Origin: Astropecten irregularis
Lineage: Eukaryota > Echinodermata > Asteroidea > Paxillosida > Astropectinidae
Direction of reading: 5' to 3'
NCBI GenBank assembly: GCA_963971285.1
Contig: OZ020246.1
Location: forward strand, 12,073,217-12,137,216
Length of the DNA: 64,000 bases
Every line of letters begins with the position of its first letter. Within the stretch, counting starts at the first letter, position 1. The notes beneath the pieces are model-generated. The model worked only from the letters and a program-made list of their open reading frames with translations. It was not told the DNA's origin and did no database searches. Made by a program: the position numbers and the translations under genes. Shown in pieces: positions 2,503 to 58,410 of this stretch.

Positions 2503-2961
2503 AAACCGATGTGGTCCCCCACAGCAGTTTTTTTCAATTTTGACCCAAAACCGACTTTTTTCAGAAATGCGCGCTATCTTCCTCATAGGTCGCTATGACT
2601 ACCAGGAACCATTTCGAACAAAAAAATGCCAATCAACTTGTCATGGAAGGATTTTTGTGTAATTTGAGGCCATTTTGTTTGTGACCGAAACTTCAAAAAT
2701 TTTATGTGGTCCCCCACATGAGTTTTTTTTATTTTTGCCCCAAAACTGACTTTTTTCAGAAATGCGCGCTATCTTCCTCAGGTCGCTATGAGTACCAGGA
2801 ACCATTTCGAACAAGAAAAATGCCAATCAACTTGTCATGGAAGGATTTTTGTGTAATTTGAGGCCATTTTGTTCGTGACTGAAACTTTAACAATTTTATG
2901 TGGTCCCCCACATGAGTTTGCCCAAAAACTGACTTTTTTCAGAAATGCGCGCTATCTTCCT
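2503..2961 (+). repeat. 195-bp satellite, short locus (about 2.4 monomers)
   Basis: Two full monomers and part of a third of the same satellite that fills 17197-58410. The first monomer has the edge-type motif GATGTGGTCCCCCACAGCAG; the next two have the CCCACATGAG type. Monomers run from GTGGTCCCCCACA through TTTTTTCAGAAATGCGCGCT and CATTTCGAACAA to GACTGAAACTT. The third stops abruptly at GCGCTATCTTCCTGG (about 2961), where unrelated sequence begins. The left flank matches the left flank of the large array. Confidence 0.9.
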
Positions 2962-3105
2962 GGTCTAGCTCATTAAACTCGCCGTGCTTGAGAGCACACA
3001 TCCGTCCAGTCTGCAGAATCACGGCCTCCTTGGCAACCGCAGACTCTCCGTGCGGAACGCAGACTTCCTGCAGAATAACGCGCAGTCAATTTTGAGAAGG
3101 CGCCT
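2962..3105. other. Short unique linker between satellite and HMBS cassette
   Basis: This GC-richer linker is not present at the right edge of the large array. It contains no recognised feature. The HMBS cassette that follows is truncated at its left side here: it starts at CCTTACTGTTTTTATGCTCC, while other copies extend about 100 bases further upstream. Confidence 0.4.
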
Positions 3106-3252
3106 TACTGTTTTTATGCTCCTGTGCGGCGGACAAGGCATGCCGTAACTGTGCAATACCATCTGACCCATCCAGTCCTTTTATGGGCCTTCTGCATTGA
3201 GAATCTACAATCCATTTTGTTTCTTTCATTTTCCTCTTTCTTTATTTGACAG
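3106..3252 (+). repeat. HMBS cassette, upstream intron part, copy 1
   Basis: This is the same sequence that precedes the HMBS-like exon at 59660-59918, 61380-61655 and 62490-62758, here cut short on the left. It ends in a pyrimidine-rich tract and TTTATTTGACAG, a good splice acceptor. Confidence 0.8.
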
Positions 3253-3436
3253 TTACAATGGACAAAAACGTTGACACGATTCAGGTTCAGCTACCTTCAA
3301 ATATCAGGATAACCAGCCTGTTCACCTATGAACTGGAGAGGGCGCTAGTTGCTGACAAGCTTGATATGATCATCCATTCGTTAAAGGATTTGCCATCTGT
3401 GTTACATGAGGGAACGTCAATCTGAACCATCTGCAG
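3253..3436 (+). pseudogene. HMBS: Hydroxymethylbilane synthase exon remnant, copy 1 of 4
   Basis: A 184-base exon-like block lies between a splice acceptor (TTTGACAG) and a donor (GTAAGG). Its translation contains SLFTYELERALVADKLDMII followed by HSLKDLPSVLHEG. This matches the HMBS (porphobilinogen deaminase, haem pathway) region around the catalytic Asp, the Lys-Asp of HSLKDLP. TGA at 3423-3425 lies where the family has a small residue, giving GTSI-stop-TIC against the usual GFTIGAIC. There is no frameshift. It is one internal exon only; I recognise no other HMBS exons here. All four copies share the stop, so this is a pseudogene fragment carried in a repeat and not a working enzyme. Assignment to HMBS is from motif memory and is fairly secure. 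Confidence 0.8.
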
Positions 3437-3486
3437 GTAAGGATGTTTTCATATCAACATCTGCATGTTTGATTTACAGCGATTGC

Positions 3487-3600
3487 TAATGGGGTTGCCG
3501 TAGACAGTGTCTGTCTCCCTCTAGTGATCATGATGAGTCAGGTATTGCCACTCAAGTGAGTGTCTGTCTCCTTCTAGTAATCATCGTGAGTCAGGTATTG
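3487..3600 (+). repeat. 54-bp minisatellite, short run (about 2 units)
   Basis: The units contain GAGTGTCTGTCTCC, TCTAGTAATCATC or TCTAGTGATCATG, and GTCAGGTATTGCCACTCAAG. The same family recurs at 4028-4260, 59388-59640, 60705-61370 and 61905-62010. Confidence 0.8.
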
Positions 3601-3980
3601 CCCACTGATCTATACAAAAGATCTAATCTGACATCGGACTTGCCTGAAATATATCAAAATTTCGCATTATCATCACGGGTCAAAAAGTGGATGTTTTCAC
3701 CAGGTCCGGACCTGATAGCCAGCGGGCAGTTTCAACACTGGTAGCCAGGGGTCCTGGGTGCGAGACCCGAAACGGCATAATGTTTTTTTCCGACACCAAA
3801 AATCTAATCTGACATTTGATTGGTTGCTATGTCCGTTTGTTTGTCGGCCTACTTGTTCTCCAGTGTCATAAGTTTGCCTATCTGAAACCAAAATCTGAAT
3901 TGGGTCGACTTAAAGTCGCTCCTGATCTATTGAGTTCAATGGCAATGCTGGGACGCCTGTCTGAAACGGGGGTTATAAAT
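3601..3980 (+). repeat. GGTCCGGACC repeat unit with downstream cassette segment
   Basis: 3601-3790 is a single unit of the GGTCCGGACC family: AAATATATCAAAATTTCGC, then TCACGGGTCAAAAAGTGG, then the palindrome, then GGGTGCGAGACCC. 3790-3980 is a segment shared with 58514-58630, 60465-60645 and 62210-62385 (landmark GGGTCGACTTAAAGTCGCTC). No function is recognised for either part. Confidence 0.75.
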
Positions 3981-3981
3981 T

Positions 3982-4095
3982 GAGTGGCAATACCTGACTC
4001 ATCATGATCACTAGAGGGAGACAGACATTGTCTATGGCAACCAAGGGAGTGTCTGTCTGCCTCTAGTGATCATCATGAGTCAAGTATTGCCACTC
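3982..4095. repeat. 46-bp-arm hairpin, copy 1
   Basis: The arm at 3982-4027 (GAGTGGCAATACCTGACTCA onward) is complementary to 4050-4095 at 43 of 46 positions, with a 22-base loop TTGTCTATGGCAACC-AAGGGAG. The right arm is itself the first unit of the 54-bp minisatellite, so the hairpin equals one minisatellite unit facing its own inverted copy. Other copies are at 60649-60762, 62387-62479 (right arm short) and 58629-59450 (loop split by an insertion). Confidence 0.85.
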
Positions 4096-4260
4096 AAGTG
4101 AGTGTCTGTCTCCTTCTAGTAATCATCGTGAGTCAGGTATTGCCACTCAAGTGAGTGTCTGTCTCCTTCTAGTAATCATCGTGAGTCAGGTATTGCCACT
4201 CAAGTGAGTGTCTGTCTCCTTCTAGTAATCATCATGAGTCAGGTATTGCCCACTGATCTA
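4028..4260 (+). repeat. 54-bp minisatellite (about 4 units)
   Basis: Tandem units of GAGTGTCTGTCTCCTTCTAG followed by TAATCATCGTGAGTCAGG and TATTGCCACTCAAGT, nearly identical to each other. Read on the plus strand it creates a short open frame that I regard as incidental. Confidence 0.85.
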
Positions 4261-4263
4261 TAC

Positions 4264-5160
4264 AAAAGATCTAATCTGACATTGGACTCGCTTGAAATAT
4301 ATCAAAATTTCGCATTATCATCACGGGTCAAAAAGTGGATGTTTTCACCAGGTCCGGACCTGATAGCCATCGGCCATTTTTCACCAGGTCCGGACCTGAT
4401 AGCCAGGGGTTCCCTGGTGCGATATTCGAAACTTCATAATTTTTTTTTTCCTGACACTAAAAAATCTAATCTGACATTGGACTCGCTTGAAATATATCAA
4501 AATTTGGCATTATCATCACGGGTCAAAAAGTGGATGTTTTCACCATGTCCGGACCTGATAGCCATCGGTCATTTTTCACCAGGTCCGAACCTGATAGCCA
4601 GGGGTGCCGGGTGCGATATCCAAAAACTTTATAAAAATTTTTTCCTGACACTAAAAAATCTAATCTGACATCGGACTCACTTGAAATATATCAAAATTTG
4701 GCATTATCTTCATTGGTCAAAAAGTGGATGTTTTCACCAGGTCCGGACCTGATAGCCAGGGGTCCCAGGTGCGAAACCCGAAACTTCATAAATTTTTTTT
4801 CCAGACATTAAAAAATCTAATCTGACATCGGACTCGCTTGAAATATATCAAAATTTGGCTTTATCATCATGGGTCAAAAAGTGGATGTTTTCACCAGGTC
4901 CGGACCTGATAGCCAACGGCCATTTTTCACCAGGTCCAGACCTGATAGCCAGGGGTCCCGGGTGCGATATCCGAAACTTCATAATTTTTTTTTCCGACAT
5001 TAAAAAATCTAATCTGACATCGGACTCGCTTGAAATATATCGACATTTGGCATTATCATCTCCGGTCAAAAAGTGGGAGTTTTCACCAGGTCCGGACCTG
5101 ATAGCCAACGGCCAGTTTTTACCAGGTCCGGACCCGATAGCCAGGGGTCCCAGGTTTGTT
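4264..5160 (+). repeat. Tandem ~190-bp repeat carrying GGTCCGGACC palindromes (5 units)
   Basis: Units begin with AAATCTAATCTGACAT at about 4267, 4461, 4655, 4811 and 5004. The spacing is near 193 except for one unit of about 157. Each contains CGCTTGAAATATATCAAAAT, GGTCAAAAAGTGGATG, one or two copies of CACCAGGTCCGGACCTGATA and GGGTGCGAGACCC or GATATCC variants. The last block is like the B box of a tRNA promoter, so the unit may be built from a tRNA-derived element. Open frames on both strands arise from the repeat and are not treated as genes. Confidence 0.85.
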
Positions 5161-5700
5161 TGAGACCCAGAGCGGCAGGATTTTTTTCCCAGATTCCAAA
5201 ACTGCCACATTTTGACACGTGAGTCTAAAATAAAAATTCTGCAGCTCCGGGTCTCGAACCCGGGATTTCTGGCTCTCAGGTCGGGACCTGTTCTAAACTG
5301 CCACTCTTTGACACGCGAGTTAAAAAAGAAATCCTGCTCCTTCGGGTCTCGAAACTGGGATTTCTAGCTCTCAGGTCCGGATCTGTTCCAAACTGCCACA
5401 ATTTGACACGCGAGTTAAAAAAATCCTTCTTCTCCGGGTCTCGAAACTGGGATTTCTGGCTCACAGGTCCGGACCTGTTCCAAACTGCCACTTTTTGACA
5501 CACGAGTTGAAAAAAAAAATTCTTCAGATCCGGGTCTCAAACCAGGAATTTTTTGCTCTCAGGTCCGGACCTGTTCCAAACTGCCACTTCTTGACACGCG
5601 AGTTGAAAAAACAAATTGTGCTGCTCCGGGTCTCGAACCTGGGTTTTCTGGCTCTCAGGTCCAGACCTGTTCCAAACTGCCACTTTTTGACACGTGTCTG
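5161..5700. repeat. Tandem ~95-bp repeat (5-6 units), related palindrome
   Basis: Units are marked by TTTGACACGCGAGTT at about 5211, 5307, 5403, 5497, 5591 and 5687, giving a period of 94-96. Each unit carries GGGTCTCGAACC or a variant and CTCAGGTCCGGACCTGTTCC. On the minus strand the first motif reads GGTTCGAGACC, close to a tRNA gene B box. The repeat adjoins the 190-bp family and shares its GGTCCGGACC core, so the two probably have a common origin. Confidence 0.85.
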
Positions 5701-5960: not shown

Positions 5961-5999
5961 GTTTGACACTTGAATCGAAAAAATCGAACTTTGGATTTT

Positions 6000-13802: not shown

Positions 13803-13845
13803 GCTAGTTGCGATGATCGTAACCCTAGGTCTGACATGGGGACAG

Positions 13846-13915
13846 GGCCCGATGAACAGGGATAATAATAATGTACAGCGCTTTGATCTTCTTGGAAAGG
13901 CGCTTTATTATTACC
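13846..13915. other. ~68-bp insertion inside the left inverted arm
   Basis: The right arm joins GGGGACTGGGAC to CTTAGGGTTACG directly. The left arm has extra sequence with AATAATAATGTACAGCGCTT and AAAGGCGCTTTATTATTA. GCGCTTT-type tails of this form end several animal retroposon families, so this may be a short retroposed fragment. Confidence 0.5.
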
Positions 13916-14335
13916 TTAGGGTTACGACACTTTGTTGAAAAAAAACGATCGAAACACTTTTTGGCCAACTTGTGAAGTACAATTGTCCTTAATTTTCCAC
14001 TTTCCAAAATCCTAACACAAAATCTGACTACATGGATCTGATTGATACTTATCAATGAGTCATATAAAACCACTTTGAATATCGAAATCTGATCATTTTC
14101 TGCAGAAAAAATTACCCAAAACTTACCGAAGGTGTCCAGATTCCCTCCGTTCACCCTCGGTCGGCCATTTTGAATAGTGCGCAGTGCCATCTCGACCAAA
14201 ATACGTCACGCGAAATGTCGTTTTGGCTGTTCCACCTTTCAAACTCAAACTCATAGCCCTATGGAGGGTGTCCCCAGAATAACACGTGCGCTGTTTGTGA
14301 TATAGCGCGTACGCGCATATCGCATACAGTATGGA

Positions 14336-15384
14336 GGAGGTTTTTTTTTTAAGTCCGCATTGTTTGCCCATGTGAAGCTGCCGCTGACAATTCAAATCTT
14401 TCATCATGAACTGAAGGAAATTGCTAAGATTTTCAAACGATTTCCTTTACGAATGGTCCCACAAACAGACAAATCAAGTCACAAACTCGGCACCGACCCA
14501 ATCCATGATCAAACAGAAATAAAATGTCATCCACCTCATCGTCACAGATCGCGCAGTGGTCGGAATTAACGGGTGGACTGCAAAATATATCCGGTCATCA
14601 ATTACACCCAAAATGATCATACCCGGTAGGACAGTGAGAACATATTCCTAAAAATATCACCGGAATATTCCATCGGAAAAAACACCATTTCTTACTGCAA
14701 ATCTGTACCGAGCCGGCCGGCCGTGAGCCACCGTCCGTAACGGTGGAATGAACCCGGCCGCGATCCAAAAATGGTAGCCCTTCCGACCGAGCGCAACACT
14801 TCATTTCAAGCCCACGGCATGCGTAATGTACTGATTGAGACTTTCGCTGGTGCACGTACACAATGTACGTTTGCTTTGAAACTGTAGCTATTACGCACGC
14901 GGATACCAGGCTGTCTGTCTCTGCCGTGTGGGCAATGTTTTTACGTCTTAATTTAATGCGATCGTCGGTCGGTTTCGGAAGGATTTTACGATATATTTTT
15001 TTAGATTAAGTATAATTATGAAAAGAGTGTTTCTACTTGGCCAATTGAACAAAATAACTGAGTGAAATTCAAGTAAGATTTATAATCTGATCAGCCTGCG
15101 ATTTGCGGTACTTTGGAAGGACGGTCGATCAGAATATTTTTAATTAGATCTTGCAACGATATAACACATACATATCGTGTATATACTGTACACTTCATTT
15201 CTTCCTCCATGAAACGTATTTTCGCATGTGTTCGATGTCGCTGTTGGATGTCGGAAAAAAAATCATGCCGTATACGTTTTTCTTCACCTGTCATGAGCGG
15301 CGAAAAATAAATTTAATTCGGCAGTTTCGGCACACGTAAAGGTGTTTTTAGGGGGTCTGGTCAATTCTATAACCTGTAATTTTT
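14336..15384. other. Spacer of the inverted-arm element
   Basis: No gene was recognised. A local GC-rich hairpin, CCACCGT-CCGTA-ACGGTGG, lies near 14727-14745 beside CCGGCCGGCC. Short open frames on both strands overlap each other and lack motifs. Confidence 0.4.
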
Positions 15385-15890
15385 TTAACCCAATACACCG
15401 AGCATGCTGTGTGCGGCGCGGCGGCCGTTGCTATGGAGTACACACTGTATCATGCGATATGCCGTGTATAGCACTGTAAAGCGTACGTGATACGAGCCCT
15501 CCATAGGGCTGTGAGTTTGAGTTTGAAAGGTGGAACAGCCAAAACGACATTTCGTGTGACGTATTTTGGTCGAGATGGCACTGCGCACTATTCAAAATGG
15601 CCGACCAAGGGCGAACGGAGGGAATCTAGACACCTTCGGTAAGTTTTGGGTAATTTTTTCTGCAGAAAATGATCTTTCGATATTCAAAGTGGTTTTATAT
15701 GACTCATTGATAAGTACCAATCAGATCCATGTAGTCGGATTTTGTGTTGGGATTTTGGAAAGTGGGAAATTAAGGACAATTGTATTTCACAAGTTGGCCA
15801 AAAAGTGTTTCGATCGGTTTTTCTTAACAAAGTGTCGTAACCCTAAGGTCCCAGTCCCCATGTCAGACCTAGGGTTACAATCATCGCAAC

Positions 15891-17196
15891 TAGGAGTCGA
15901 CAGTGCATGTGTATACCCGTGTGAAGTGCAGTTTTTGACGTTGCATGCGTGTTGAGTGCCATTTGTTGTGTCTCTTTCCTTATCTAATCTTTGCCTCGGA
16001 ACTAAAAACACCTGGCAATATTAAGCTGCTCACATAAAACAAGGATGCGGCTATCAGCAGTTTGCATGAGGTTTGTTAATCATGGTAACTCTCTTCTTAC
16101 ACTTTCTCTTACTCTTGTAGAACATTTGGTGATAGTGTAGGTTAGGCCACCTAAGCAGATAATGGCTTTAATGGTAATAACATAAAGTGGTTTTATCAAA
16201 GAAATTACAAATTATGGGCAAAAACATCAAGACAGATACTTAACAGTCTTTTGTGAAAATTTCAGTCCCTTACGGCATGTACGGTGCCCACTTCCTGAGA
16301 AAAATACAGCCACTCAATCTGTGAACATTTCTGTTTTGGTTTCTTACCAAAGTACATGTATGATACTGCCTTTAAAAGCACTGCCAAATTTCCACAATTG
16401 TAACCTTAATATTCAAGAGGACTGTTGCCACCACCAAGGTATTTAGGTGACTAACTTTACAAAAGTGGTTTAAGCTACAATTAGTGACCTTAATTACACT
16501 ATTAGTTTACCATACATTTTCTCCATTGACCACCTTCAATTTGTTCTGTATTTCGTTATTCCAGATTGGTAGGCCTTGGGCCAAAAATCCACGAGCTCTT
16601 TTGAAGATGAAGACAGTGATAAAGTCCAGGAACTCACAAGAAAGATTTGATCGGTGAGTAGAACCCTTCATTACTCCATTTTCACAATGGGAGACTTTGG
16701 AGAATCGGTCTTGAGTCAACAGCGCACGCGCAAACCATGCTTGCGCAATTGTGAGCATGCGCGTGTAGTATTACATTCTCGTGCGTGCACGTGCGAGTTT
16801 GACTTGAAGACCGGTTCTCCAAAAGTCTCCCATTTTGACATAACCGGTCGTAGAGGCCTCCAAGGGCTCCAAAGTTGTTAACTGATATAACCACCAAGAC
16901 AATTTCCAGCCCCTCAAATGAAAGTAACTTGAAGATTTGTGAATTAATTACTCAGCATGGTGTTAAATGGTGTCATGTATACATGTAGGATAATCGAGAA
17001 AAACTACAAATTTTGAGTCAAACTTCCGTACGTATGTGTCCGACTATCTACATGTAGCGTGCTTTGTGAGATCCATATTATCACATGTCTTACATAATTC
17101 TGAAAGCCCTGTAGCAGTTTCCCTATATCCTCAAGACTCATTGAGCTAGAGCCTCACAACACACATCTTACAGAATAAGAAGACCTTAAGAGAAAT
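15891..17196 (+). repeat. Segmental duplication, copy B (paired with 1063-2500)
   Basis: It begins GAGTCGACAGTGCATGTGTA, directly after the inverted-arm element, and follows copy A to the satellite border, where copy A has ACAGAATAAGAAGACATTAA and this copy ACAGAATAAGAAGACCTTAA. Differences are mostly single bases plus loss or absence of the 158-base block of copy A. Confidence 0.85.
16676..16839. repeat. Long hairpin (inverted repeat), copy B
   Basis: Arms at about 16676-16725 and 16796-16839 again pair GGGAGACTTTGGAGAATCGG with AAGACCGGTTCTCCAAAAGT. Some bases differ from copy A, including the G/C change that pairs with ACCGG on the other arm (position about 16706 with 16812), so pairing is kept. 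Confidence 0.7.
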
Positions 17197-29600: not shown

Positions 29601-29799
29601 AAAAAAATGCCAATGAACTTGTCATGGAAGGATTTTTGTGTAATTTGAGGCCATTTTGTTTGTGACTGAAACTTCAAAAATTTTATGTGGTCCCCCACAT
29701 GAGTTTTTTCGATTTTTGCCCCAAAACTGACTTTTTTCAGAAATGCGTGCTATCTTCCTCATAGGTCGCTATGACTACCAGGAGCCATTTCGAACAAAA

Positions 29800-41700: not shown

Positions 41701-44500
41701 AAAATGCCAATCAACTTGTCATGGAAGGATTTTTGGGTAATTTGAGGCCATTTTGTTCGTGACTGAAACTTCAAAAATTTTATGTGGTCCCCCACAGCAG
41801 TTTTTTCAATTTTGACCCGAAAACGACTTTTTTCAGAAATGCGCGCTATCTTCCTCATAGGTCGCTATGACTACCAGGAATCATTTCGAACAAAAAAATG
41901 CCAATCAACTTGTCATGGAAGGATTTTTGTGCAATTTGAGGCCATTTTGTTCGTGACTGAAACTTCAAAAATTTTATGTGGTCCCCCACATGAGTTTTTT
42001 CGATTTCTGCCCCAAAACTGACTTTTTTCAGAAATGCGCGCTATCTTCCTCATAGGTCGCTATGACTACCAGGAATCATTTCGAACAAAAAAATGCCAAT
42101 CAACTTGTCATGGAAGGATTTTTGTGCAATTTGAGGCCATTTTGTTCGTGACTGAAACTTCAAAAATTTTATGTGGTCCCCCACATGAGTTTTTTCAATT
42201 TTTGCCCCAAAACTGACTTTTTTCAGAAATGCGCGCTATCTTCCTCATAGGTCGCTATGACTACCAGGAACCATTTCGAACAAGAAAATGCCAATCAACT
42301 TGTCATGGAAGGATTTTTGTGTAATTTGAGGCAATTTTGTTCGTGACTGAAACTTCAAAAATTGTATGTGGTCCCCCACATGAGTTTTTTCGATTTTTGC
42401 CCCAAAACTGACTTTTTTCAGAAATGCGCGCTATCTTCCTCATAGGTCGCTATGACTACCATGAATCATTTAGAACAAAAAAATGCCAATCAACTTGTCA
42501 TTGAAGGATTTTTGTATAATTTGAGGCCATTTTGTTCGTGACTGAAACTTCAAAAATTTTATGTGGTCCCCCACATGAGTTTTTTCAATTTTTGCCCCAA
42601 AACTGACTTTTTTCAGAAATGCGCGCTATCTTCCTCATAGGTCGCTATGACTACCAGGAACCATTTCGAACAAGAAAATGCCAATCAACTTGTCATGGAA
42701 GGATTTTTGGGTAATTTGAGGCCATTTTGTTCGTGACTGAAACTTCAAAAATTTTATGTGGTCCCCCACAGCAGTTTTTTCAATTTTGACCCGAAAACGA
42801 CTTTTTTCAGAAATGCGCGCTATCTTCCTCATAGGTCGCTATGACTACCAGGAATCATTTCGAACAAAAAAATGCCAATCAACTTGTCATGGAAGGATTT
42901 TTGTGCAATTTGAGGCCATTTTGTTCGTGACTGAAACTTCAAAAATTTTATGTGGTCCCCCACATGAGTTTTTTCGATTTCTGCCCCAAAACTGACTTTT
43001 TTCAGAAATGCGCGCTATCTTCCTCATAGGTCGCTATGACTACCAGGAATCATTTCGAACAAAAAAATGCCAATCAACTTGTCATGGAAGGATTTTTGTG
43101 TAATTTGAGGCCATTTTGTTCGTGACTGAAACTTCAAAAATTTTATGTGGTCCCCCACATGAGTTTTTTCAATTTTTGCCCCATAACTGACTTTTTTCAG
43201 AAATGCGCGCTATCTTCCTCATAGGTCGCTATGACTACCAGGAACCATTTCGAACAAAAAGATGCCAATCATCTTGTTATGGAAGGATTTTTGTGTAATT
43301 TGAGGCCATTTTGTTCGTGACTGAAACTTCAAAAATTTTATGTGGTCCCCCACATGAGTTTTTTCGATTTTTGCCCCAAAACTGACTTTTTTCAGAAATG
43401 CGCGCTATCTTCCTCATAGGTCGCTATGACTACCAGGAATCATTTAGAACAAAAAAATGCCAATCAACTTGTCATTGAAGGATTTTTGTATAATTTGAGG
43501 CCATTTTGTTCGTGACTGAAACTTCAAAAATTTTATGTGGTCCCCCACATGAGTTTTTTCAATTTTTGCCCCAAAACTGACTTTTTTCAGAAATGCGCGC
43601 TATCTTCCTCATAGGTCGCTATGACTACCAGGAACCATTTCGAACAAGAAAATGCCAATCAACTTGTCATGGAAGGATTTTTGGGTAATTTGAGGCCATT
43701 TTGTTCGTGACTGAAACTTCAAAAATTTTATGTGGTCCCCCACATGAGTTTTTTCAATTTTTGCCCCAAAACTGACTTTTTTCAGAAATGCGCGCTATCT
43801 TCCTCATAGGTCGCTATGACTACCAGGAACCATTTCGAACAAGAAAATGCCAATCAACTTGTCATGGAAGGATTTTTGGGTAATTTGAGGCCATTTTGTT
43901 CGTGACTGAAACTTCAAAAATTTTATGTGGTCCCCCACATGAGTTTTTTTGATTTTTGCCCCAAAACTGACTTTTTTCAGAAATGCGCGCTATCTTCCTC
44001 ATAGGTCGCTATGACTACCAGGAACCATTTCGAACAAGAAAATGCCAATCAACTTGTCATGGAAGGATTTTTGGGTAATTTGAGGCCATTTTGTTCGTGA
44101 CTGAAACTTCAAAAATTTTATGTGGTCCCCCACATGAGTTTTTTTGATTTTTGCCCCAAAACTGACTTTTTTCAGAAATGCGCGCTATCTTCCTCATAGG
44201 TCGCTATGACTACCAGGAATCATTTAGAACAAAAAAATGCCAATCAACTTGTCATGGAAGGATTTTTGTGTAATTTGAGGCCATTTTGTTCGTGACTGAA
44301 ACTTCAAAAATTTTATGTGGTCCCCCCACATGAGTTTTTTCGATTTTTGCCCCAAAACTGACTTTTTTTAGAAATGCGCGCTATCTTCCTCATAGGTCGC
44401 TATGACTTCCAGGAACCATTTCGAACAAAAAAATGCCAATCAACTTGTCATGCAAGGATTTTTGTGTAATTTGAGGCCATTTTGTTCGTGACTGAAACTT
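29800..44500 (+). repeat. Higher-order repeat: ~4.5-6 kb block duplicated at 7,804-base offset
   Basis: Sequence from about 29.8 to 34.3 kb recurs at 37.6 to 42.1 kb, exactly 7,804 bases (40 monomers) later. Examples are the frames at 33256/41060 and 33857/41661, and the CCTCAAAGTTAGC variant at about 31126/38930. Similarity continues to about 35.9 and 44.5 kb, with whole-monomer gains and losses. The 5-monomer block 41060-42033 is itself repeated at 42034-43007 (974-base offset). Confidence 0.8.
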
Positions 44501-47500
44501 CAAAAATTGTATGTGGTCCCCCACATGAGTTTTTTCAATTTTTGCCCAAAAACTGACTTTTTTCAGAAATGCGCGCTATCTTCCTCATAGTTAGCTATGA
44601 CTACCAGGAACCATTTCGAACAAGAAAAATGCCAATCAACTTGTCATGCAAGGATTTTTGTGTAATTAAAGGCCATTTTGTTCGTGACTAAAACTTCAAA
44701 AATTGTATGTGGTCCCCCACATGAGTTTTTTCGATTTTTGCCCAAAAACTGACTTTTTTCAGAAATGCGAGCTATCTTCCTCATAGTTAGCTATGACTAC
44801 CAGGAACCATTTCGAACAAAAAAATGCCAATCAACTTGTCATGGAAGGATTTTTGTGTAATTTGAGGCCATTTTGTTCGTGACTGAAACTTCAAAAATTT
44901 AATGTGGTCCCCCACAGCAGTTTTTTCAATTTTGACCCAAAAACGACTTTTTTCAGAAATGCGCGCTATCTTCCTCATAGGTCGCTATGACTACCAGGAA
45001 CCATTTCGAACAAGAAAATGCCAATCAACTTGTCATGGAAGGATTTTTGTGTAATTTGAGGCCATTTTGTTCGTGACTGAAACTTCAAAAATTTTATGTG
45101 GTCCCCCACATGAGTTTTTTCAATTTTTGCCCCAAAACTGACTTTTTTCAGAAATGCGCGCTATCTTCCTCATAGGTCGCTATGACTACCAGGAACCATT
45201 TCGAACAAGAAAATGCCAATCAACTTGTCATGGAAGGATTTTTGTGTAATTTGAGGCCATTTTGTTCGTGACTGAAACTTCAAAAATTTTATGTGGTCCC
45301 CCACATGAGTTTTTTCGATTTCTGCCCCAAAACTGACTTTTTTCAGAAATGCGCGCTATCTTCCTCATAGGTCGCTATGACTACCAGGAATCATTTCGAA
45401 CAAAAAAATGCCAATCAACTTGTCATGGAAGGATTTTTGTGTAATTTGAGGCCATTTTGTTCGTGACTGAAACTTCAAAAATTTTATGTGGTCCCCCACA
45501 TGAGTTTTTTCAATTTTTGCCCCATAACTGACTTTTTTCAGAAATGCGCGCTATCTTCCTCATAGGTCGCTATGACTACCAGGAATCATTTAGAACAAAA
45601 AAATGCCAATCAACTTGTCATGGAAGGATTTTTGTGTAATTTGAGGCCATTTTGTTCGTGACTGAAACTTCAAAAATTTTATGTGGTCCCCCACATGAGT
45701 TTTTTCAATTTTTGCCCCATAACTGACTTTTTTCAGAAATGCGCGCTATCTTCCTCATAGGTCGCTATGACTACCAGGAACCATTTCGAACAAAAAGATG
45801 CCAATCATCTTGTTATGGAAGGATTTTTGTGTAATTTGAGGCCATTTTGTTCGTGACTGAAACTTCAAAAATTTTATGTGGTCCCCCACATGAGTTTTTT
45901 CGATTTTTGCCCCAAAACTGACTTTTTTCAGAAATGCGCGCTATCTTCCTCATAGGTCGCTATGACTACCAGGAATCATTTCGAACAAAAAAATGCCAAT
46001 CAACTTGTCATGGAAGGATTTTTGTGCAATTTGAGGCCATTTTGTTCGTGACTGAAACTTCTAAAATTTTATGTGGTCCCCCACATGAGTTTTTTCAATT
46101 TTTGCCCAAAAACTGACTTTTTTCAGAAATGCGAGCTATCTTCCTCATAGTTAGCTATGACTACCAGGAACCATTTCGAACAAAAAAATGCCAATCAACT
46201 TGTCATGGAAGGATTTTTGTGTAATTTGAGGCCATTTTGTTCGTGACTGAAACTTCAAAAATTTAATGTGGTCCCCCACAGCAGTTTTTTCAATTTTGAC
46301 CCAAAAACGACTTTTTTCAGAAATGCGCGCTATCTTCCTCATAGGTCGCTATGACTACCAGGAACCATTTCGAACAAGAAAATGCCAATCAACTTGTCAT
46401 GGAAGGATTTTTGTGTAATTTGAGGCCATTTTGTTCGTGACTGAAACTTCAAAAATTTTATGTGGTCCCCCACATGAGTTTTTTCAATTTTTGCCCCGAA
46501 ACTGACTTTTTTCAGAAATGCGCGCTATCTTCCTCATAGGTCGCTATGACTACCAGGAACCATTTCGAACAAGAAAATGCCAATCAACTTGTCATGGAAG
46601 GATTTTTGTGTAATTTGAGGCCATTTTGTTCGTGACTGAAACTTCAAAAATTTTATGTGGTCCCCCACATGAGTTTTTTCGATTTCTGCCCCAAAACTGA
46701 CTTTTTTCAGAAATGCGCGCTATCTTCCTCATAGGTCGCTATGACTACCAGGAATCATTTCGAACAAAAAAATGCCAATCAACTTGTCATGGAAGGATTT
46801 TTGTGTAATTTGAGGCCATTTTGTTCGTGACTGAAACTTCAAAAATTTTATGTGGTCCCCCACATGAGTTTTTTCAATTTTTGCCCCATAACTGACTTTT
46901 TTCAGAAATGCGCGCTATCTTCCTCATAGGTCGCTATGACTACCAGGAATCATTTAGAACAAAAAAATGCCAATCAACTTGTCATGGAAGGATTTTTGTG
47001 TAATTTGAGGCCATTTTGTTCGTGACTGAAACTTCAAAAATTTTATGTGGTCCCCCACATGAGTTTTTTCAATTTTTGCCCCATAACTGACTTTTTTCAG
47101 AAATGCGCGCTATCTTCCTCATAGGTCGCTATGACTACCAGGAACCATTTCGAACAAAAAGATGCCAATCATCTTGTTATGGAAGGATTTTTGTGTAATT
47201 TGAGGCCATTTTGTTCGTGACTGAAACTTCAAAAATTTTATGTGGTCCCCCACATGAGTTTTTTCGATTTTTGCCCCAAAACTGACTTTTTTCAGAAATG
47301 CGCGCTATCTTCCTCATAGGTCGCTATGACTACCAGGAATCATTTCGAACAAAAAAATGCCAATCAACTTGTCATGGAAGGATTTTTGTGCAATTTGAGG
47401 CCATTTTGTTCGTGACTGAAACTTCAAAAATTTTATGTGGTCCCCCACATGAGTTTTTTCAATTTTTGCCCCAAAACTGACTTTTTTCAGAAATGCGCGC

Positions 47501-50500
47501 TATCTTCCTCATAGGTCGCTATGACTACCAGGAACCATTTCGAACAAGAAAATGCCAATCAACTTGTCATGGAAGGATTTTTGGGTAATTTGAGGCCATT
47601 TTGTTCGTGACTGAAACTTCAAAAATTTTATGTGGTCCCCCACATGAGTTTTTTTGATTTTTGCCCCAAAACTGACTTTTTTCAGAAATGCGCGCTATCT
47701 TCCTCATAGGTCGCTATGACTACCAGGAATCATTTAGAACAAAAAAATGCCAATCAACTTGTCATGGAAGGATTTTTGTGTAATTTGAGGCCATTTTGTT
47801 CGTGACTGAAACTTCAAAAATTTTATGTGGTCCCCCCACATGAGTTTTTTCGATTTTTGCCCCAAAACTGACTTTTTTTAGAAATGCGCGCTATCTTCCT
47901 CATAGGTCGCTATGACTTCCAGGAACCATTTCGAACAAAAAAATGCCAATCAACTTGTCATGCAAGGATTTTTGTGTAATTTGAGGCCATTTTGTTCGTG
48001 ACTGAAACTTCAAAAATTGTATGTGGTCCCCCACATGAGTTTTTTCAATTTTTGCCCAAAAACTGACTTTTTTCAGAAATGCGCGCTATCTTCCTCATAG
48101 TTAGCTATGACTACCAGGAACCATTTCGAACAAGAAAAATGCCAATCAACTTGTCATGCAAGGATTTTTGTGTAATTAAAGGCCATTTTGTTCGTGACTA
48201 AAACTTCAAAAATTGTATGTGGTCCCCCACATGAGTTTTTTCGATTTTTGCCCAAAAACTGACTTTTTTCAGAAATGCGAGCTATCTTCCTCATAGTTAG
48301 CTATGACTACCAGGAACCATTTCGAACAAAAAAATGCCAATCAACTTGTCATGGAAGGATTTTTGTGTAATTTGAGGCCATTTTGTTCGTGACTGAAACT
48401 TCAAAAATTTAATGTGGTCCCCCACAGCAGTTTTTTCAATTTTGACCCAAAAACGACTTTTTTCAGAAATGCGCGCTATCTTCCTCATAGGTCGCTATGA
48501 CTACCAGGAACCATTTCGAACAAGAAAATGCCAATCAACTTGTCATGGAAGGATTTTTGTGTAATTTGAGGCCATTTTGTTCGTGACTGAAACTTCAAAA
48601 ATTTTATGTGGTCCCCCACATGAGTTTTTTCAATTTTTGCCCCAAAACTGACTTTTTTCAGAAATGCGCGCTATCTTCCTCATAGGTCGCTATGACTACC
48701 AGGAACCATTTCGAACAAGAAAATGCCAATCAACTTGTCATGGAAGGATTTTTGTGTAATTTGAGGCCATTTTGTTCGTGACTGAAACTTCAAAAATTTT
48801 ATGTGGTCCCCCACATGAGTTTTTTCGATTTCTGCCCCAAAACTGACTTTTTTCAGAAATGCGCGCTATCTTCCTCATAGGTCGCTATGACTACCAGGAA
48901 TCATTTCGAACAAAAAAATGCCAATCAACTTGTCATGGAAGGATTTTTGTGTAATTTGAGGCCATTTTGTTCGTGACTGAAACTTCAAAAATTTTATGTG
49001 GTCCCCCACATGAGTTTTTTCAATTTTTGCCCCATAACTGACTTTTTTCAGAAATGCGCGCTATCTTCCTCATAGGTCGCTATGACTACCAGGAATCATT
49101 TAGAACAAAAAAATGCCAATCAACTTGTCATGGAAGGATTTTTGTGTAATTTGAGGCCATTTTGTTCGTGACTGAAACTTCAAAAATTTTATGTGGTCCC
49201 CCACATGAGTTTTTTCAATTTTTGCCCCATAACTGACTTTTTTCAGAAATGCGCGCTATCTTCCTCATAGGTCGCTATGACTACCAGGAACCATTTCGAA
49301 CAAAAAGATGCCAATCATCTTGTTATGGAAGGATTTTTGTGTAATTTGAGGCCATTTTGTTCGTGACTGAAACTTCAAAAATTTTATGTGGTCCCCCACA
49401 TGAGTTTTTTCGATTTTTGTCCCAAAACTGACTTTTTTCAGAAATGCGCGCTATCTTCCTCATAGGTCGCTATGACTACCAGGAATCATTTCGAACAAAA
49501 AAATGCCAATCAACTTGTCATGGAAGGATTTTTGTGCAATTTGAGGCCATTTTGTTCGTGACTGAAACTTCAAAAATTTTATGTGGTCCCCCACATGAGT
49601 TTTTTCAATTTTTGCCCAAAAACTGACTTTTTTCAGAAATGCGAGCTATCTTCCTCATAGTTAGCTATGACTACCAGGAACCATTTCGAACAAAAAAATG
49701 CCAATCAACTTGTCATGGAAGGATTTTTGTGTAATTTGAGGCCATTTTGTTCGTGACTGAAACTTCAAAAATTTAATGTGGTCCCCCACAGCAGTTTTTT
49801 CAATTTTGACCCAAAAACGACTTTTTTCAGAAATGCGCGCTATCTTCCTCATAGGTCGCTATGACTACCAGGAACCATTTCGAACAAGAAAATGCCAATC
49901 AACTTGTCATGGAAGGATTTTTGTGTAATTTGAGGCCATTTTGTTCGTGACTGAAACTTCAAAAATTTTATGTGGTCCCCCACATGAGTTTTTTCAATTT
50001 TTGCCCCGAAACTGACTTTTTTCAGAAATGCGCGCTATCTTCCTCATAGGTCGCTATGACTACCAGGAACCATTTCGAACAAGAAAATGCCAATCAACTT
50101 GTCATGGAAGGATTTTTGTGTAATTTGAGGCCATTTTGTTCGTGACTGAAACTTCAAAAATTTTATGTGGTCCCCCACATGAGTTTTTTCGATTTCTGCC
50201 CCAAAACTGACTTTTTTCAGAAATGCGCGCTATCTTCCTCATAGGTCGCTATGACTACCAGGAATCATTTCGAACAAAAAAATGCCAATCAACTTGTCAT
50301 GGAAGGATTTTTGTGTAATTTGAGGCCATTTTGTTCGTGACTGAAACTTCAAAAATTTTATGTGGTCCCCCACATGATTTTTTTTTAATTTTTGCCCCAT
50401 AACTGACTTTTTTCAGAAATGCGCGCTATCTTCCTCATAGGTCGCTATGACTACCAGGAATCATTTAGAACAAAAAAATGCCAATCAACTTGTCATGGAA

Positions 50501-50975
50501 GGATTTTTGTGTAATTTGAGGCCATTTTGTTCGTGACTGAAACTTCAAAAATTTTATGTGGTCCCCCACATGAGTTTTTTCAATTTTTGCCCCATAACTG
50601 ACTTTTTTCAGAAATGCGCGCTATCTTCCTCATAGGTCGCTATGACTACCAGGAACCATTTCGAACAAAAAGATGCCAATCATCTTGTTATGGAAGGATT
50701 TTTGTGTAATTTGAGGCCATTTTGTTCGTGACTGAAACTTCAAAAATTTTATGTGGTCCCCCACATGAGTTTTTTTGATTTTTGCCCCAAAACTGACTTT
50801 TTTCAGAAATGCGCGCTATCTTCCTCATAGGTCGCTATGACTACCAGGAATCATTTCGAACAAAAAAATGCCAATCAACTTGTCATGGAAGGATTTTTGT
50901 GCAATTTGAGGCCATTTTGTTCGTGACTGAAACTTCAAAAATTTTATGTGGTCCCCCACATGAGTTTTTTCAATT
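43955..50975 (+). repeat. Higher-order repeat: 18-monomer (3,510-bp) block, two tandem copies
   Basis: Every diagnostic variant in about 43955-47465 returns 3,510 bases later: CTTTTTTTAGAAATGCG at 44371/47881, GTGTAATTAAAGGCC at about 44660/48170, GACTAAAACTTC and others. A single-base length change near 50383 shifts the last part to 3,511. The two copies are almost identical, so this is a recent event. Confidence 0.85.
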
Positions 50976-52669
50976 TTTGCCCCAAAACTGACTTTTTTCA
51001 GAAATGCGCGCTATCTTCCTCATAGGTCGCTATGACTACCAGGAACCATTTCGAACAAGAAAATGCCAATCAACTTGTCATGGAAGGATTTTTGTGTAAT
51101 TTGAGGCAATTTTGTTCGTGACTGAAACTTCAAAAATTGTATGTGGTCCCCCACATGAGTTTTTTCGATTTTTGCCCCAAAACTGACTTTTTTCAGAAAT
51201 GCGCGCTATCTTCCTCATAGGTCGCTATGACTACCAGGAACCATTTCGAACAAGAAAATGCCAATCAACTTGTCATGGAAGGATTTTTGTGTAATTTGAG
51301 GCAATTTTGTTCGTGACTGAAACTTCAAAAATTGTATGTGGTCCCCCACATGAGTTTTTTCGATTTTTGCCCCAAAACTGACTTTTTTCAGAAATGCGCG
51401 CTATCTTCCTCATAGGTCGCTATGACTACCAGGAATCATTTAGAACAAAAAAATGCCAATCAACTTGTCATTGAAGGATTTTTGTATAATTTGAGGCCAT
51501 TTTGTTCGTGACTGAAACTTCAAAAATTTTATGTGGTCCCCCACATGAGTTTTTTCAATTTTTGCCCCAAAACTGACTTTTTTCAGAAATGCGCGCTATC
51601 TTCCTCATAGGTCGCTATGACTACCAGGAACCATTTCGAACAAGAAAATGCCAATCAACTTGTCATGGAAGGATTTTTGGGTAATTTGAGGCCATTTTGT
51701 TCGTGACTGAAACTTCAAAAATTTTATGTGGTCCCCCACATGAGTTTTTTTGATTTTTGCCCCAAAACTGACTTTTTTCAGAAATGCGCGCTATCTTCCT
51801 CATAGGTCGCTATGACTACCAGGAATCATTTAGAAAAAAAAAATGCCAATCAACTTGTCATGGAAGGATTTTTGTGCAATTTGAGGCCATTTTGTTCGTG
51901 ACTGAAACTTCAAAAATTTTATGTGGTCCCCCACATGAGTTTTTTCAATTTTTGCCCCAAAACTGACTTTTTTCAGAAATGCACGCTATCTTCCTCATAG
52001 GTCGCTATGACTACCAGGAACCATTTCGAACAAGAAAATGCCAATCAACTTGTCATGGAAGGATTTTTGTGTAATTTGAGGCAATTTTGTTCGTGACTGA
52101 AACTTCAAAAATTGTATGTGGTCCCCCACATGAGTTTTTTCGATTTTTGCCCCAAAACTGACTTTTTTCAGAAATGCGCGCTATCTTCCTCATAGGTCGC
52201 TATGACTACCAGGAATCATTTAGAACAAAAAAATGCCAATCAACTTGTCATTGAAGGATTTTTGTATAATTTGAGGCCATTTTGTTCGTGACTGAAACTT
52301 CAAAAATTTTATGTGGTCCCCCACATGAGTTTTTTCAATTTTTGCCCCAAAACTGACTTTTTTCAGAAATGCGCGCTATCTTCCTCATAGGTCGCTATGA
52401 CTACCAGGAACCATTTCGAACAAGAAAATGCCAATCAACTTGTCATGGAAGGATTTTTGGGTAATTTGAGGCCATTTTGTTCGTGACTGAAACTTCAAAA
52501 ATTTTATGTGGTCCCCCACATGAGTTTTTTAGATTTTTGCCCCAAAACTGACTTTTTTCAGAAATGCGCGCTATCTTCCTCATAGGTCGCTATGACTACC
52601 AGGAATCATTTAGAACAAAAAAATGCCAATCAACTTGTCATGGAAGGATTTTTGTGTAATTTGAGGCCA

Positions 52670-55600
52670 TTTTGTTCGTGACTGAAACTTCAAAAATTTT
52701 ATGTGGTCCCCCATATGAGTTTTTTCGATTTTTGCCCCAAAACTCACTTTTTTCAGAAATGCGCGCTATCTTCCTCATAGGTCGCTATGACTACCAGGAA
52801 TCATTTAGAACAAAAAAATGCCAATCAACTTGTCATGGAAGGATTTTTGTGTAATTTGAGGCCATTTTGTTCGTGACTGAAACTTCAAAAATTTTATGTG
52901 GTCCCCCACAGCAGTTTTTTCAATTTTGACCCAAAAACGACTTTTTTCAGAAATGCGCGCTATCTTCCTCATAGGTCGCTATGACTACCAGGAATCATTT
53001 CGAACAAAAAAATGCCAATCAACTTGTCATGGAAGGATTTTTGTGCAATTTGAGGCCATTTTGTTCGTGACTGAAACTTCAAAAATTTTATGTGGTCCCC
53101 CACATGAGTTTTTTCAATTTTTGCCCCATAACTGACTTTTTTCAGAAATGCGCGCTATCTTCCTCATAGGTCGCTATGACTACCAGGAACCATTTCGAAC
53201 AAAAAGATGCCAATCATCTTGTTATGGAAGGATTTTTGTGTAATTTGAGGCCATTTTGTTCGTGACTGAAACTTCAAAAATTTTATGTGGTCCCCCACAT
53301 GAGTTTTTTCGATTTTTGCCCCAAAACTGACTTTTTTCAGAAATGCGCGCTATCTTCCTCATAGGTCGCTATGACTACCAGGAATCATTTCGAACAAAAA
53401 AATGCCAATCAACTTGTCATGGAAGGATTTTTGTGCAATTTGAGGCCATTTTGTTCGTGACTGAAACTTCAAAAATTTTATGTGGTCCCCCACATGAGTT
53501 TTTTCAATTTTTGCCCCAAAACTGACTTTTTTCAGAAATGCGCGCTATCTTCCTCATAGGTCGCTATGACTACCAGGAATCATTTAGAACAAAAAAATGC
53601 CAATCAACTTGTCATTGAAGGATTTTTGTATAATTTGAGGCCATTTTGTTCGTGACTGAAACTTCAAAAATTTTATGTGGTCCCCCACATGAGTTTTTTC
53701 AATTTTTGCCCCAAAACTGACTTTTTTCAGAAATGCGCGCTATCTTCCTCATAGGTCGCTATGACTACCAGGAACCATTTCGAACAAGAAAATGCCAATC
53801 AACTTGTCATGGAAGGATTTTTGGGTAATTTGAGGCCATTTTGTTCGTGACTGAAACTTCAAAAATTTTATGTGGTCCCCCACATGAGTTTTTTCAATTT
53901 TTGCCCCAAAACTGACTTTTTTCAGAAATGCGCGCTATCTTCCTCATAGGTCGCTATGACTACCAGGAATCATTTAGAACAAAAAAATGCCAATCAACTT
54001 GTCATGGAAGGATTTTTGTGTAATTTGAGGCCATTTTGTTCGTGACTGAAACTTCAAAAATTTTATGTGGTCCCCCCACATGAGTTTTTTCGATTTTTGC
54101 CCCAAAACTGACTTTTTTTAGAAATGCGCGCTATCTTCCTCATAGGTCGCTATGACTTCCAGGAACCATTTCGAACAAAAAAATGCCAATCAACTTGTCA
54201 TGCAAGGATTTTTGTATAATTTGAGGCCATTTTGTTCGTGACTGAAACTTCAAAAATTTTATGTGGTCCCCCACATGAGTTTTTTCAATTTTTGCCCCAA
54301 AACTGACTTTTTTCAGAAATGCGCGCTATCTTCCTCATAGGTCGCTATGACTACCAGGAACCATTTCGAACAAGAAAATGCCAATCAACTTGTCATGGAA
54401 GGATTTTTGGGTAATTTGAGGCCATTTTGTTCGTGACTGAAACTTCAAAAATTTTATGTGGTCCCCCACATGAGTTTTTTTGATTTTTGCCCCAAAACTG
54501 ACTTTTTTCAGAAATGCGCGCTATCTTCCTCATAGGTCGCTATGACTACCAGGAATCATTTAGAACAAAAAAATGCCAATCAACTTGTCATGGAAGGATT
54601 TTTGTGTAATTTGAGGCCATTTTGTTCGTGACTGAAACTTCAAAAATTTTATGTGGTCCCCCATATGAGTTTTTTCGATTTTTGCCCCAAAACTCACTTT
54701 TTTCAGAAATGCGCGCTATCTTCCTCATAGGTCGCTATGACTACCAGGAATCATTTAGAACAAAAAAATGCCAATCAACTTGTCATGGAAGGATTTTTGT
54801 GTAATTTGAGGCCATTTTGTTCGTGACTGAAACTTCAAAAATTTTATGTGGTCCCCCACAGCAGTTTTTTCAATTTTGACCCAAAAACGACTTTTTTCAG
54901 AAATGCGTGCTATCTTCCTCATAGGTCGCTATGACTACCAGGAATCATTTCGAACAAAAAAATGCCAATCAACTTGTCATGGAAGGATTTTTGTGCAATT
55001 TGAGGCCATTTTGTTCGTGACTGAAACTTCAAAAATTTTATGTGGTCCCCCACATGAGTTTTTTCAATTTTTGCCCCAAAACTGACTTTTTCCAGAAATG
55101 CGCGCTATCTTCCTCATAGGTCGCTATGACTACCAGGAACCATTTCGAACAAGAAAATGCCAATCAACTTGTCATGGAAGGATTTTTGTGTAATTTGAGG
55201 CAATTTTGTTCGTGACTGAAACTTCAAAAATTGTATGTGGTCCCCCACATGAGTTTTTTCGATTTTTGCCCCAAAACTGACTTTTTTCAGAAATGCGCGC
55301 TATCTTCCTCATAGGTCGCTATGACTACCAGGAATCATTTAGAACAAAAAAATGCCAATCAACTTGTCATTGAAGGATTTTTGTATAATTTGAGGCCATT
55401 TTGTTCGTGACTGAAACTTCAAAAATTTTATGTGGTCCCCCACATGAGTTTTTTTGATTTTTGCCCCAAAACTGACTTTTTTCAGAAATGCGCGCTATCT
55501 TCCTCATAGGTCGCTATGACTACCAGGAATCATTTAGAACAAAAAAATGCCAATCAACTTGTCATGGAAGGATTTTTGTGTAATTTGAGGCCATTTTGTT

Positions 55601-57145
55601 CGTGACTGAAACTTCAAAAATTTTATGTGGTCCCCCATATGAGTTTTTTCGATTTTTGCCCCAAAACTCACTTTTTTCAGAAATGCGTGCTATCTTCCTC
55701 ATAGGTCGCTATGACTACCAGGAACCATTTCCAACAAAAAAATGCCAATCAACTTGTCATGCAAGGATTTTTGTGTAATTTGAGGCCATTTTGTTCGTGA
55801 CTGAAACTTCAAAAATTTTATGTGGTCCCCCACATGAGTTTTTTCGATTTTTGCCCAAAAACTGACTTTTTTCAGAAATGCGCGCTATCTTCCTCATAGG
55901 TCGCTATGACTACCAGGAACCATTTCGAACAAGAAAATGCCAATCAACTTGTCATGGAAGGATTTTTGTGTAATTTGAGGCCATTTTGTTCGTGACTGAA
56001 ACTTCAAAAATTTTATGTGGTCCCCCACATGAGTTTTTTCAATTTTTGCCCCAAAACTGACTTTTTTCAGAAATGCGCGCTATCTTCCTCATAGGTCGCT
56101 ATGACTACCAGGAACCATTTCGAACAAGAAAATGCCAATCAACTTGTCATGGAAGGATTTTTGTGTAATTTGAGGCCATTTTGTTCGTGACTGAAACTTC
56201 AAAAATTTTATGTGGTCCCCCACAGCAGTTTTTTCAATTTTGACCCAAAAACGACTTTTTTCAGAAATGCGTGCTATCTTCCTCATAGGTCGCTATGACT
56301 ACCAGGAATCATTTCGAACAAAAAAATGCCAATCAACTTGTCATGGAAGGATTTTTGTGCAATTTGAGGCCATTTTGTTCGTGACTGAAACTTCAAAAAT
56401 TTTATGTGGTCCCCCACATGAGTTTTTTCAATTTTTGCCCCAAAACTGACTTTTTCCAGAAATGCGCGCTATCTTCCTCATAGGTCGCTATGACTACCAG
56501 GAACCATTTCGAACAAGAAAATGCCAATCAACTTGTCATGGAAGGATTTTTGTGTAATTTGAGGCAATTTTGTTCGTGACTGAAACTTCAAAAATTGTAT
56601 GTGGTCCCCCACATGAGTTTTTTCGATTTTTGCCCCAAAACTGACTTTTTTCAGAAATGCGCGCTATCTTCCTCATAGGTCGCTATGACTACCAGGAATC
56701 ATTTAGAACAAAAAAATGCCAATCAACTTGTCATTGAAGGATTTTTGTATAATTTGAGGCCATTTTGTTCGTGACTGAAACTTCAAAAATTTTATGTGGT
56801 CCCCCACATGAGTTTTTTTGATTTTTGCCCCAAAACTGACTTTTTTCAGAAATGCGCGCTATCTTCCTCATAGGTCGCTATGACTACCAGGAATCATTTA
56901 GAACAAAAAAATGCCAATCAACTTGTCATGGAAGGATTTTTGTGTAATTTGAGGCCATTTTGTTCGTGACTGAAACTTCAAAAATTTTATGTGGTCCCCC
57001 ATATGAGTTTTTTCGATTTTTGCCCCAAAACTCACTTTTTTCAGAAATGCGTGCTATCTTCCTCATAGGTCGCTATGACTACCAGGAACCATTTCCAACA
57101 AAAAAATGCCAATCAACTTGTCATGCAAGGATTTTTGTGTAATTT
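52670..57145 (+). repeat. Higher-order repeats of 5, 7 and 10 monomers near the right end
   Basis: The marker CCCCCATATGAG with AAAACTCACTTTTTTC occurs at about 52710, 54660, 55634 and 56998. The offsets are 1,950, 974 and 1,364 bases, that is 10, 5 and 7 monomers. The block 54846-55780 returns almost unchanged at 56210-57144. Confidence 0.8.
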
Positions 57146-58410
57146 GAGGCCATTTTGTTCGTGACTGAAACTTCAAAAATTTTATGTGGTCCCCCACATG
57201 AGTTTTTTCGATTTTTGCCCAAAAACTGACTTTTTTCAGAAATGCGCGCTATCTTCCTCATAGGTCGCTATGACTACCAGGAACCATTTCGAACAAGAAA
57301 ATGCCAATCAACTTGTCATGGAAGGATTTTTGTGTAATTTGAGGCCATTTTGTTCGTGACTGAAACTTCAAAAATTTTATGTGGTCCCCCACATGAGTTT
57401 TTTCAATTTTTGCCCCAAAACTGACTTTTTTCAGAAATGCGCGCTATCTTCCTCATAGGTCGCTATGACTACCAGGAACCATTTCGAACAAGAAAATGCC
57501 AATCAACTTGTCATGGAAGGATTTTTGTGTAATTTGAGGCCATTTTGTTCGTGACTGAAACTTCAAAAATTTTATGTGGTCCCCCACATGAGTTTTTTCA
57601 ATTTTTGCCCCAAAACTGACTTTTTTCAGAAATGCGCGCTATCTTCCTCATAGGTCGCTATGACTACCAGGAACCATTTCGAACAAGAAAATGCCAATCA
57701 ACTTGTCATGGAAGGATTTTTGTGCAATTTGAGGCCATTTTGTTCGTGACTGAAACTTCAAAAATTTTATGTGGTCCCCCACATGAGTTTTTTCAATTTT
57801 TGCCCCAAAACTGACTTTTTTCAGAAATGCGCGCTATCTTCCTCATAGGTCGCTATGACTACCAGGAACCATTTCGAACAAGAAAATGCCAATCAACTTG
57901 TCATGGAAGGATTTTTGTGTAATTTGAGGCAATTTTGTTCGTGACTGAAACTTCAAAAATTGTATGTGGTCCCCCACATGAGTTTTTTCGATTTTTGCCC
58001 CAAAACTGACTTTTTTCAGAAATGCGCGCTATCTTCCTCATAGGTCACTATGACTACCAGGAACCATTTCGAACAAAAAAAATGCCAATCAACTTGTCAT
58101 GCAAGAATTTTTGTGTAATTTGAGGCCATTTTGTTCGTGACTGAAACTTCAAAAATTTTATGTGGTCCCCCACTTGACTGTTTTCGATTTTTGCCCCAAA
58201 ACTGACCATTTTGTTAGTGAGTGAAATTTCAGAAAAACCGATGTGGTCCCCCGGCCACAGCAGTTTTTTTCAATTTTGACCCAAAACCGACTTTTTTCGC
58301 GCTATCTTCCTCATAGTTAGCTATGACTACCAGGAACCATTTCGAGCAAGAAAAATGCCAATCAACTTGTCAATGGAAGGATTTTGGTGTAATTCTAGGC
58401 CATTTTGTTT

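Follow-up and report, generated by a model that had tools for sequence, protein, structure and literature searches.

Two arrays of one 195-bp satellite lie about 14 kb apart in the 64,000-nt stretch of DNA analysed here (the window), a short one at locus A and a long one at locus B. Does the short array preserve the seed from which the long one grew, or is it the clipped remnant of a larger array? The original prediction held that a single composite of left segment, satellite and HMBS-exon cassette had been duplicated, after which one copy expanded its repeat, and that the short locus had kept the edge-type first monomer expected of a seed.

Two arrays with a common left flank and entry point

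According to TRF, array A holds 2.4 copies of a 194-bp unit (2509-2961) and array B, at its length as assembled, 210.2 copies of a 195-bp unit (17198-58206). Cutting array B at monomer starts gave 211 starts, from 17198 to 58160, which correspond to 210 full monomers and an 81-bp remnant; a terminal partial monomer (58241-58410) lies beyond that remnant. The predicted contrast of 2.4 with about 211 monomers is thus borne out by both procedures. The monomers average 97% identity to their consensus, a mean over 211 rows that includes a 46-bp piece at only 22%, and array B is a long head-to-tail run of similar monomers, as in a satellite array. We found no third copy of the satellite in the rest of the window, where the search returned one 17-bp match (E 0.54) and nhmmer returned none at E 1. 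The features of the left sides and of the arrays are as follows.

1068..2508, plus strand: left flank of locus A, collinear with 15893-17197
2509..2703, plus strand: A1, edge-type 195-bp monomer
2704..2897, plus strand: A2, core-type monomer
2898..2961, plus strand: A3, the last unit of array A, cut to 64 bp; it has a core-type head and has lost about 11 bp internally
13804..15893, no strand assigned: 2.1-kb element bounded by long terminal inverted repeats; its right end coincides with the left border of the locus B flank
15893..17197, plus strand: left flank of locus B
17198..17394, plus strand: B001, edge-type first monomer of the long array
17395..58159, plus strand: core array, B002-B210, with nested block copies
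58160..58240, plus strand: 81-bp monomer remnant with an internal deletion
58241..58410, plus strand: Bend, the last monomer, of edge type and cut short at the right junction

The left flanks align by BLAST in two parts, 1068-1503 with 15893-16313 (92.9%) and 1664-2505 with 16316-17195 (88.3%); between them, 160 bp of the A flank (1504-1663) have no counterpart in B. With gaps ignored, substitutions amount to 23/421 in the first part (94.5% identity) and 61/840 in the second (92.7%), or 84/1261 (6.7%) over the whole flank, and they are unevenly spread, at 3-10% per 150 bp. The identity of about 95 percent first given for the flanks therefore holds for part 1 with gaps ignored, but not for part 2 or overall. 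The alignment crosses the junction, interrupted there by a gap of one base, and continues into monomer 1, so the satellite is entered at the same point in both loci to within one base, as claimed, and the absence of a shared junction, which had been named as the outcome that would count against a duplication, is not what is seen. The first monomers, A1 and B001, differ at 14/195 positions, and the flank rate predicts 13.0. Thus, flank and monomer 1 fit a joint duplication.

Farther left, only short and weaker matches connect the two loci (147-293 with 12990-13140, 79%; 39-87 with 12875-12925, 82%), and because they are more diverged than the flank they look older or separate. The pair at 147-293 and 12990-13140 includes a splice-donor-like site, upstream of both loci. 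Diverged copies of an interspersed repeat occur in both orientations at 1358-1702, 11765-11892, 12376-12741 and 16168-16304, partly within the duplicated flank. The element at 13804-15893 has inverted-repeat arms of 47 bp and about 356 bp, the longer arms being 96.3% alike with gaps aside, and a six-frame scan of it gave no Pfam domain. Also between the two loci are a minisatellite of about 78 copies of the 10-bp unit TGACTTGTGG (7304-8079) and a tRNA-Thr gene on the minus strand (8440-8512; called by ARAGORN and identified as a tRNA by Rfam).

Edge monomers, core monomers and block copying

The relationships among monomers were examined in a maximum-likelihood tree (HKY+G4, midpoint root) of the 82 distinct full B monomers together with A1, A2 and Bend; A3 and the 81-bp remnant, being too short, were left out. 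A1, B001 and Bend split off together (UFBoot 99), and A2 falls among the core monomers. B001 and Bend lie on average 10.6% and 10.2% from the core, within which the mean distance is 4.3% and the maximum 10.8%, so the edges of the long array are more divergent than its interior. A1 and Bend differ at 6/164 positions (Poisson P 0.08 against the flank rate). The short locus does keep an edge-type first monomer, as proposed, but the CACAGCAG variant also occurs away from the edges: 14/210 full B monomers carry it, B001 included, and they are spread along the array. With 13 of those 14 carriers away from the left edge, the CACAGCAG head is ruled out as an edge-only mark, and the edge signature is the set of variants that A1, B001 and Bend share beyond that head.

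Beyond the first monomer the correspondence between the arrays fades. A2 differs from B002, its partner in register, at 15/193 positions, whereas the nearest core monomer elsewhere is at a distance of 0.031 (about 6/193) and the average distance of A2 to the core, 4.9%, is itself less than the flank predicts. The nearest distance falls below the flank expectation with a Poisson P of 0.03, a value that is overstated as the smallest of 209 comparisons. The head of A3 is core-type, and its register partner B003 is of the CACAGCAG type. Because A2 is not nearest to B002 and A3 does not match B003, the flank and monomer 1 alone are clearly orthologous; register is lost after that, and the closeness of A2 to a core monomer means that exchange between the arrays is possible. 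Since A already contains a core-type monomer, edge and core types probably predate the split, unless A2 arrived by later exchange.

Array B bears the marks of growth by blocks. Its 210 full monomers comprise 82 distinct sequences, and diagonal runs of 23, 15, 13 and 7 monomers recur with 5, 4, 2 and 0 differences, respectively. When monomers were typed at up to 2 differences, 153/210 belonged to blocks with an earlier copy in the array, whereas 200 shuffles averaged 34.3 such monomers. The longest copied block was 18 monomers, against 4 in the shuffles; block copying is therefore well beyond chance. Copies of a block differ by 0-0.1%, and if rates are alike the flank split would be tens of times as old as the youngest blocks. 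The two halves of the array are slightly different (4.2% within the left, 3.9% within the right, 4.5% between them). Because the core mean of 4.3% is lower than the flank divergence of 6.7%, much of the present diversity of B is younger than the split; core pairs as far apart as 10.8% indicate that some of it may be older, so not all B diversity arose afterwards. The predicted sequence of duplication followed by expansion of one copy accordingly holds for the left flank, junction and monomer 1, which share ancestry, and for B, which grew after the split, but it does not extend to the composite as a whole.

Right junctions and HMBS-exon cassettes

The right sides of the two loci contain the following features.

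2962..3102, no strand assigned: 141 bp after array A, unmatched in a window-wide comparison
3103..5186, plus strand: the locus A cassette (HMBS exon and GGTCCGGACC), to which parts of 58411-63195 are related
58411..58677, plus strand: cassette fragments adjoining array B, like 3625-3728 and 3865-4030
58678..59385, no strand assigned: 708 bp without other match in the window
59769..63195, plus strand: three more HMBS-exon cassettes, starting at 59769, 61506 and 62609 (the last shorter), with 53-bp and GGTCCGGACC repeats

Array A stops in mid-monomer, after 64 bp of monomer 3. The sole match in the window for the adjoining 141 bp is 12 bp at 63989-64000 (E=1), running off the window end, and is likely due to chance. 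Array B stops inside its edge monomer at 58410. Next come the cassette fragments and the 708 unmatched bp, then 53-bp repeats, and the first full cassette begins at 59769. Array A has no counterpart of the monomer at B's right edge, and the two right junctions are unrelated to each other. Duplication of a whole composite should leave both flanks collinear with common breakpoints, and this was found on the left and not on the right. The claim that both loci repeat the order flank, satellite, cassette is thus correct in that related cassettes lie to the right of each array, but the order of elements and the junction itself differ. A tandem duplication extending past the right side was also considered and rejected, as the 805 bp at 63196-64000 gave no match to 5695-17190 at E 0.1. 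To the right of the A cassette, a 96-bp repeat is present in 5.3 copies (5194-5694) that have no match on the B side and none in Rfam at the gathering threshold; it carries what we take to be a tRNA B-box-like stretch.

The cassettes have a history of their own. At E 1e-10, sequence from B covers 80% of A 3103-5694, and sequence from A covers 77% of B 58411-63195. The locus A cassette and the first two full cassettes of B (B1 and B2) are about equidistant, at some 3% (29/929 for A-B1, 29/971 for A-B2 and 26/931 for B1-B2), and the three-way comparison is star-like, with 16, 16 and 13 private differences in A, B1 and B2, gaps counted. A four-way comparison over 343 bp gave 8-11 differences in all six pairs. 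The A-B2 divergence of 29/971 is lower than the 84/1261 of the flank (Fisher P 8e-5; P 0.03 against flank part 1 alone). Given this lower divergence, the cassette probably did not just travel with the flank when that was duplicated; probably the cassettes spread later or exchanged sequence, although a slower cassette rate is also possible, and because flank divergence ranges over 3-10% per 150 bp the gap could partly be rate variation. The part of the original prediction in which the HMBS cassette was duplicated within one unit is therefore not supported, given the differing right junctions and the star-like cassettes at about 3%, below the 6.7% of the flank. Within the A cassette, the GGTCCGGACC repeat region (4264-4758) has a 195-bp period like that of the satellite, to which its sequence has no match.

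The exon fragment in the cassettes resembles porphobilinogen deaminase (hydroxymethylbilane synthase): phmmer against PDB gave 3.3e-7 to positions 69-109 of chain 3eq1_A, and Pfam Porphobil_deam matched at 2.7e-9 in A and at 1.5e-9 and 1.2e-20 (summed over two copies) in B. All four copies (3253-3436, 59919-60102, 61656-61839 and 62759-62942) have splice-like borders and an in-frame TGA, and 5/7 variable sites affect the first or second position of a codon. Together, the stop codon in every copy and the positions of the variable sites give no sign of coding constraint, as expected of a captured pseudo-exon, an unconstrained passenger that spread within a repeat cassette.

Right of the last cassette is a C2H2 zinc-finger exon (63612-63727), apparently intact and with splice-like borders, which we assume to be MTF-1-like; the best domain of its top PDB phmmer entry scored 2.3e-4, and its Pfam match was below the cut-off. 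As six-frame scans of the flanks gave no other C2H2 match, both arrays may be situated inside one very long intron.

Seed or clipped remnant

The reading we favour, at a probability of roughly 55%, is that A and B descend from one segment that included the beginning of a 195-bp array and have since diverged, B expanding by block copying and A being clipped. The collinear flank and the shared entry point show that common origin, and the monomer tree suggests that the ancestral array already had edge-type and core-type monomers. After the split, B would have reached about 210 monomers largely through repeated copying of blocks of about 2-23 monomers like those seen along the array, most simply by unequal exchange or replication-slippage-like events, and the edge monomers may have escaped this turnover, retaining old variants. 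A would have lost its right part either when the duplication ended inside the array or when a deletion cut it in mid-monomer, leaving 2.4 monomers. The lower divergence of the HMBS-exon cassettes suggests that they form a distinct and younger repeat, which reached the right sides of both arrays by spreading or by exchange between them. The whole would then be selfish or neutral repeat turnover, without a selected function. Because B is bracketed by edge monomers at both ends, and A consists of an edge monomer, a core monomer and a cut third, the simplest account is an array that had its edges before the split and was clipped on the right in A.

The same left-hand evidence (flank, junction and an edge-type first monomer common to both loci) is also what would be seen if A preserved a seed of about two monomers and B were its expanded product, after duplication of one composite, and a mean core diversity in B (4.3%) under the flank divergence fits such growth as well. 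The right-hand evidence makes this account doubtful. The right junction is not common to the two loci, A ends in mid-monomer beside unmatched DNA and lacks B's right-edge monomer, and the core-type A2 is already present; furthermore, an edge-type monomer also closes B on the right, so that an edge-bracketed array probably preceded the split, and the cassette is less diverged than the flank. The proposal that A is a preserved seed is weakened accordingly. It is far less probable still that the pair is an assembly artefact, with one locus resolved twice or an array length made by the assembler. Long blocks with no or about 0.1% divergence are indeed hard to assemble, but A and B differ by 6.7% in the flank, by the 160-bp indel, by the 2.1-kb inverted-repeat element and in their right flanks, and are thus not one locus.

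Both loci might instead be insertions of one composite non-autonomous element, for example HINE/Helentron-like, with central tandem repeats that later expanded in B. Satellite-centred elements of this type are described in molluscs (PMC7492417, PMC5139131), the flank includes part of an interspersed repeat (1358-1702), a relative of which lies inverted at 12376-12741, and both arrays begin at a short palindrome with 5-bp arms. We consider this unlikely, since A and B have unrelated right flanks, not the conserved HINE/Helentron right flank with 3' subTIR and palindrome, and two copies only are visible within the window. Comparison of the left 100 bp with the 141-150 bp right flanks, taken as presumptive element ends, for 5'/3' subTIR matches (11-12 bp) gave no inverted 9-mer at A and one at B, shorter than 11 bp. 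Six-frame Pfam scans of 1-17200 and 58206-64000 contained no transposase or other mobile-element domain; porphobilinogen deaminase was the only match above the Pfam cut-off, and a coding mobile element was rejected for these regions. Matches below the family cut-offs were to three C2H2 models, DUF1951, Disulph_isomer, AIF_C, VPS51_Exo84_N, SH3_YKFC_2nd and DUF3896. Rfam at the gathering threshold gave one tRNA and no ribozyme. A scan of viral contigs with one satellite pattern and one cassette pattern, which may miss near records, returned 0 matches for each.

The two loci could tentatively be viewed as a dated pair, a near-quiescent remnant that retains its edge beside a block-copying sister, so that growth onset, block sizes and edge conservation could be read against the 6.7% flank clock; A may be the pre-expansion state. 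We consider this extension possible rather than probable.

The growth of satellites is usually deduced from entire families dispersed across a genome. Subrepeats of the Ogre retrotransposon in Lathyrus sativus, as described, likewise form short and long arrays of one repeat, the long ones inferred to grow from short ones inside the element, but those are dispersed copies in a coding retrotransposon accounting for 45% of the genome (PMC7004042), whereas here there are two neighbouring loci and no element protein was found. In the Tetris foldback transposon of Drosophila virilis, with its TIR-220 satellite, element-internal repeats of ~220 bp are similarly reported to be amplified into arrays of up to 66 copies; these sit in terminal inverted repeats (PMC4079207), whereas no ends of this kind were seen on either side of the array here. 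The Cg_HINE Helentrons of Crassostrea gigas are described with the same layout of left module, central satellite-like repeats and right module (PMC7492417); they have a conserved right flank, whereas those of A and B are unrelated, and the intervals compared here yielded no match of 11-12 bp like their subTIRs. Mollusc satellites, in the published account of their junctions, also have abrupt borders, one of them at a palindrome, and element arrays that can shrink to monomer segments; their border monomers are no different from the pool, whereas here the edge monomers group apart (PMC5139131). Because the growth of short arrays has already been described for Ogre and Tetris, the present pair is a clear example of a known process, with a usable internal clock. 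The term "195 bp" satellite was absent among the matches listed in an open-access keyword search, which is weak evidence of absence.

In human alpha satellite, array edges are more divergent than the core, and the same is seen here. The homogenised core with block (higher-order) copies is a further likeness, as that satellite is described (PMC8122249). Unlike human alpha satellite, the array here is small, at 41 kb, and has a short relative about 14 kb away. One entry point is thus present in two copies of opposite array length, about 14 kb apart and with a usable flank clock, and a comparison of individuals and sister species could show whether intact seeds give rise to arrays or whether most short arrays are remnants left by clipping.
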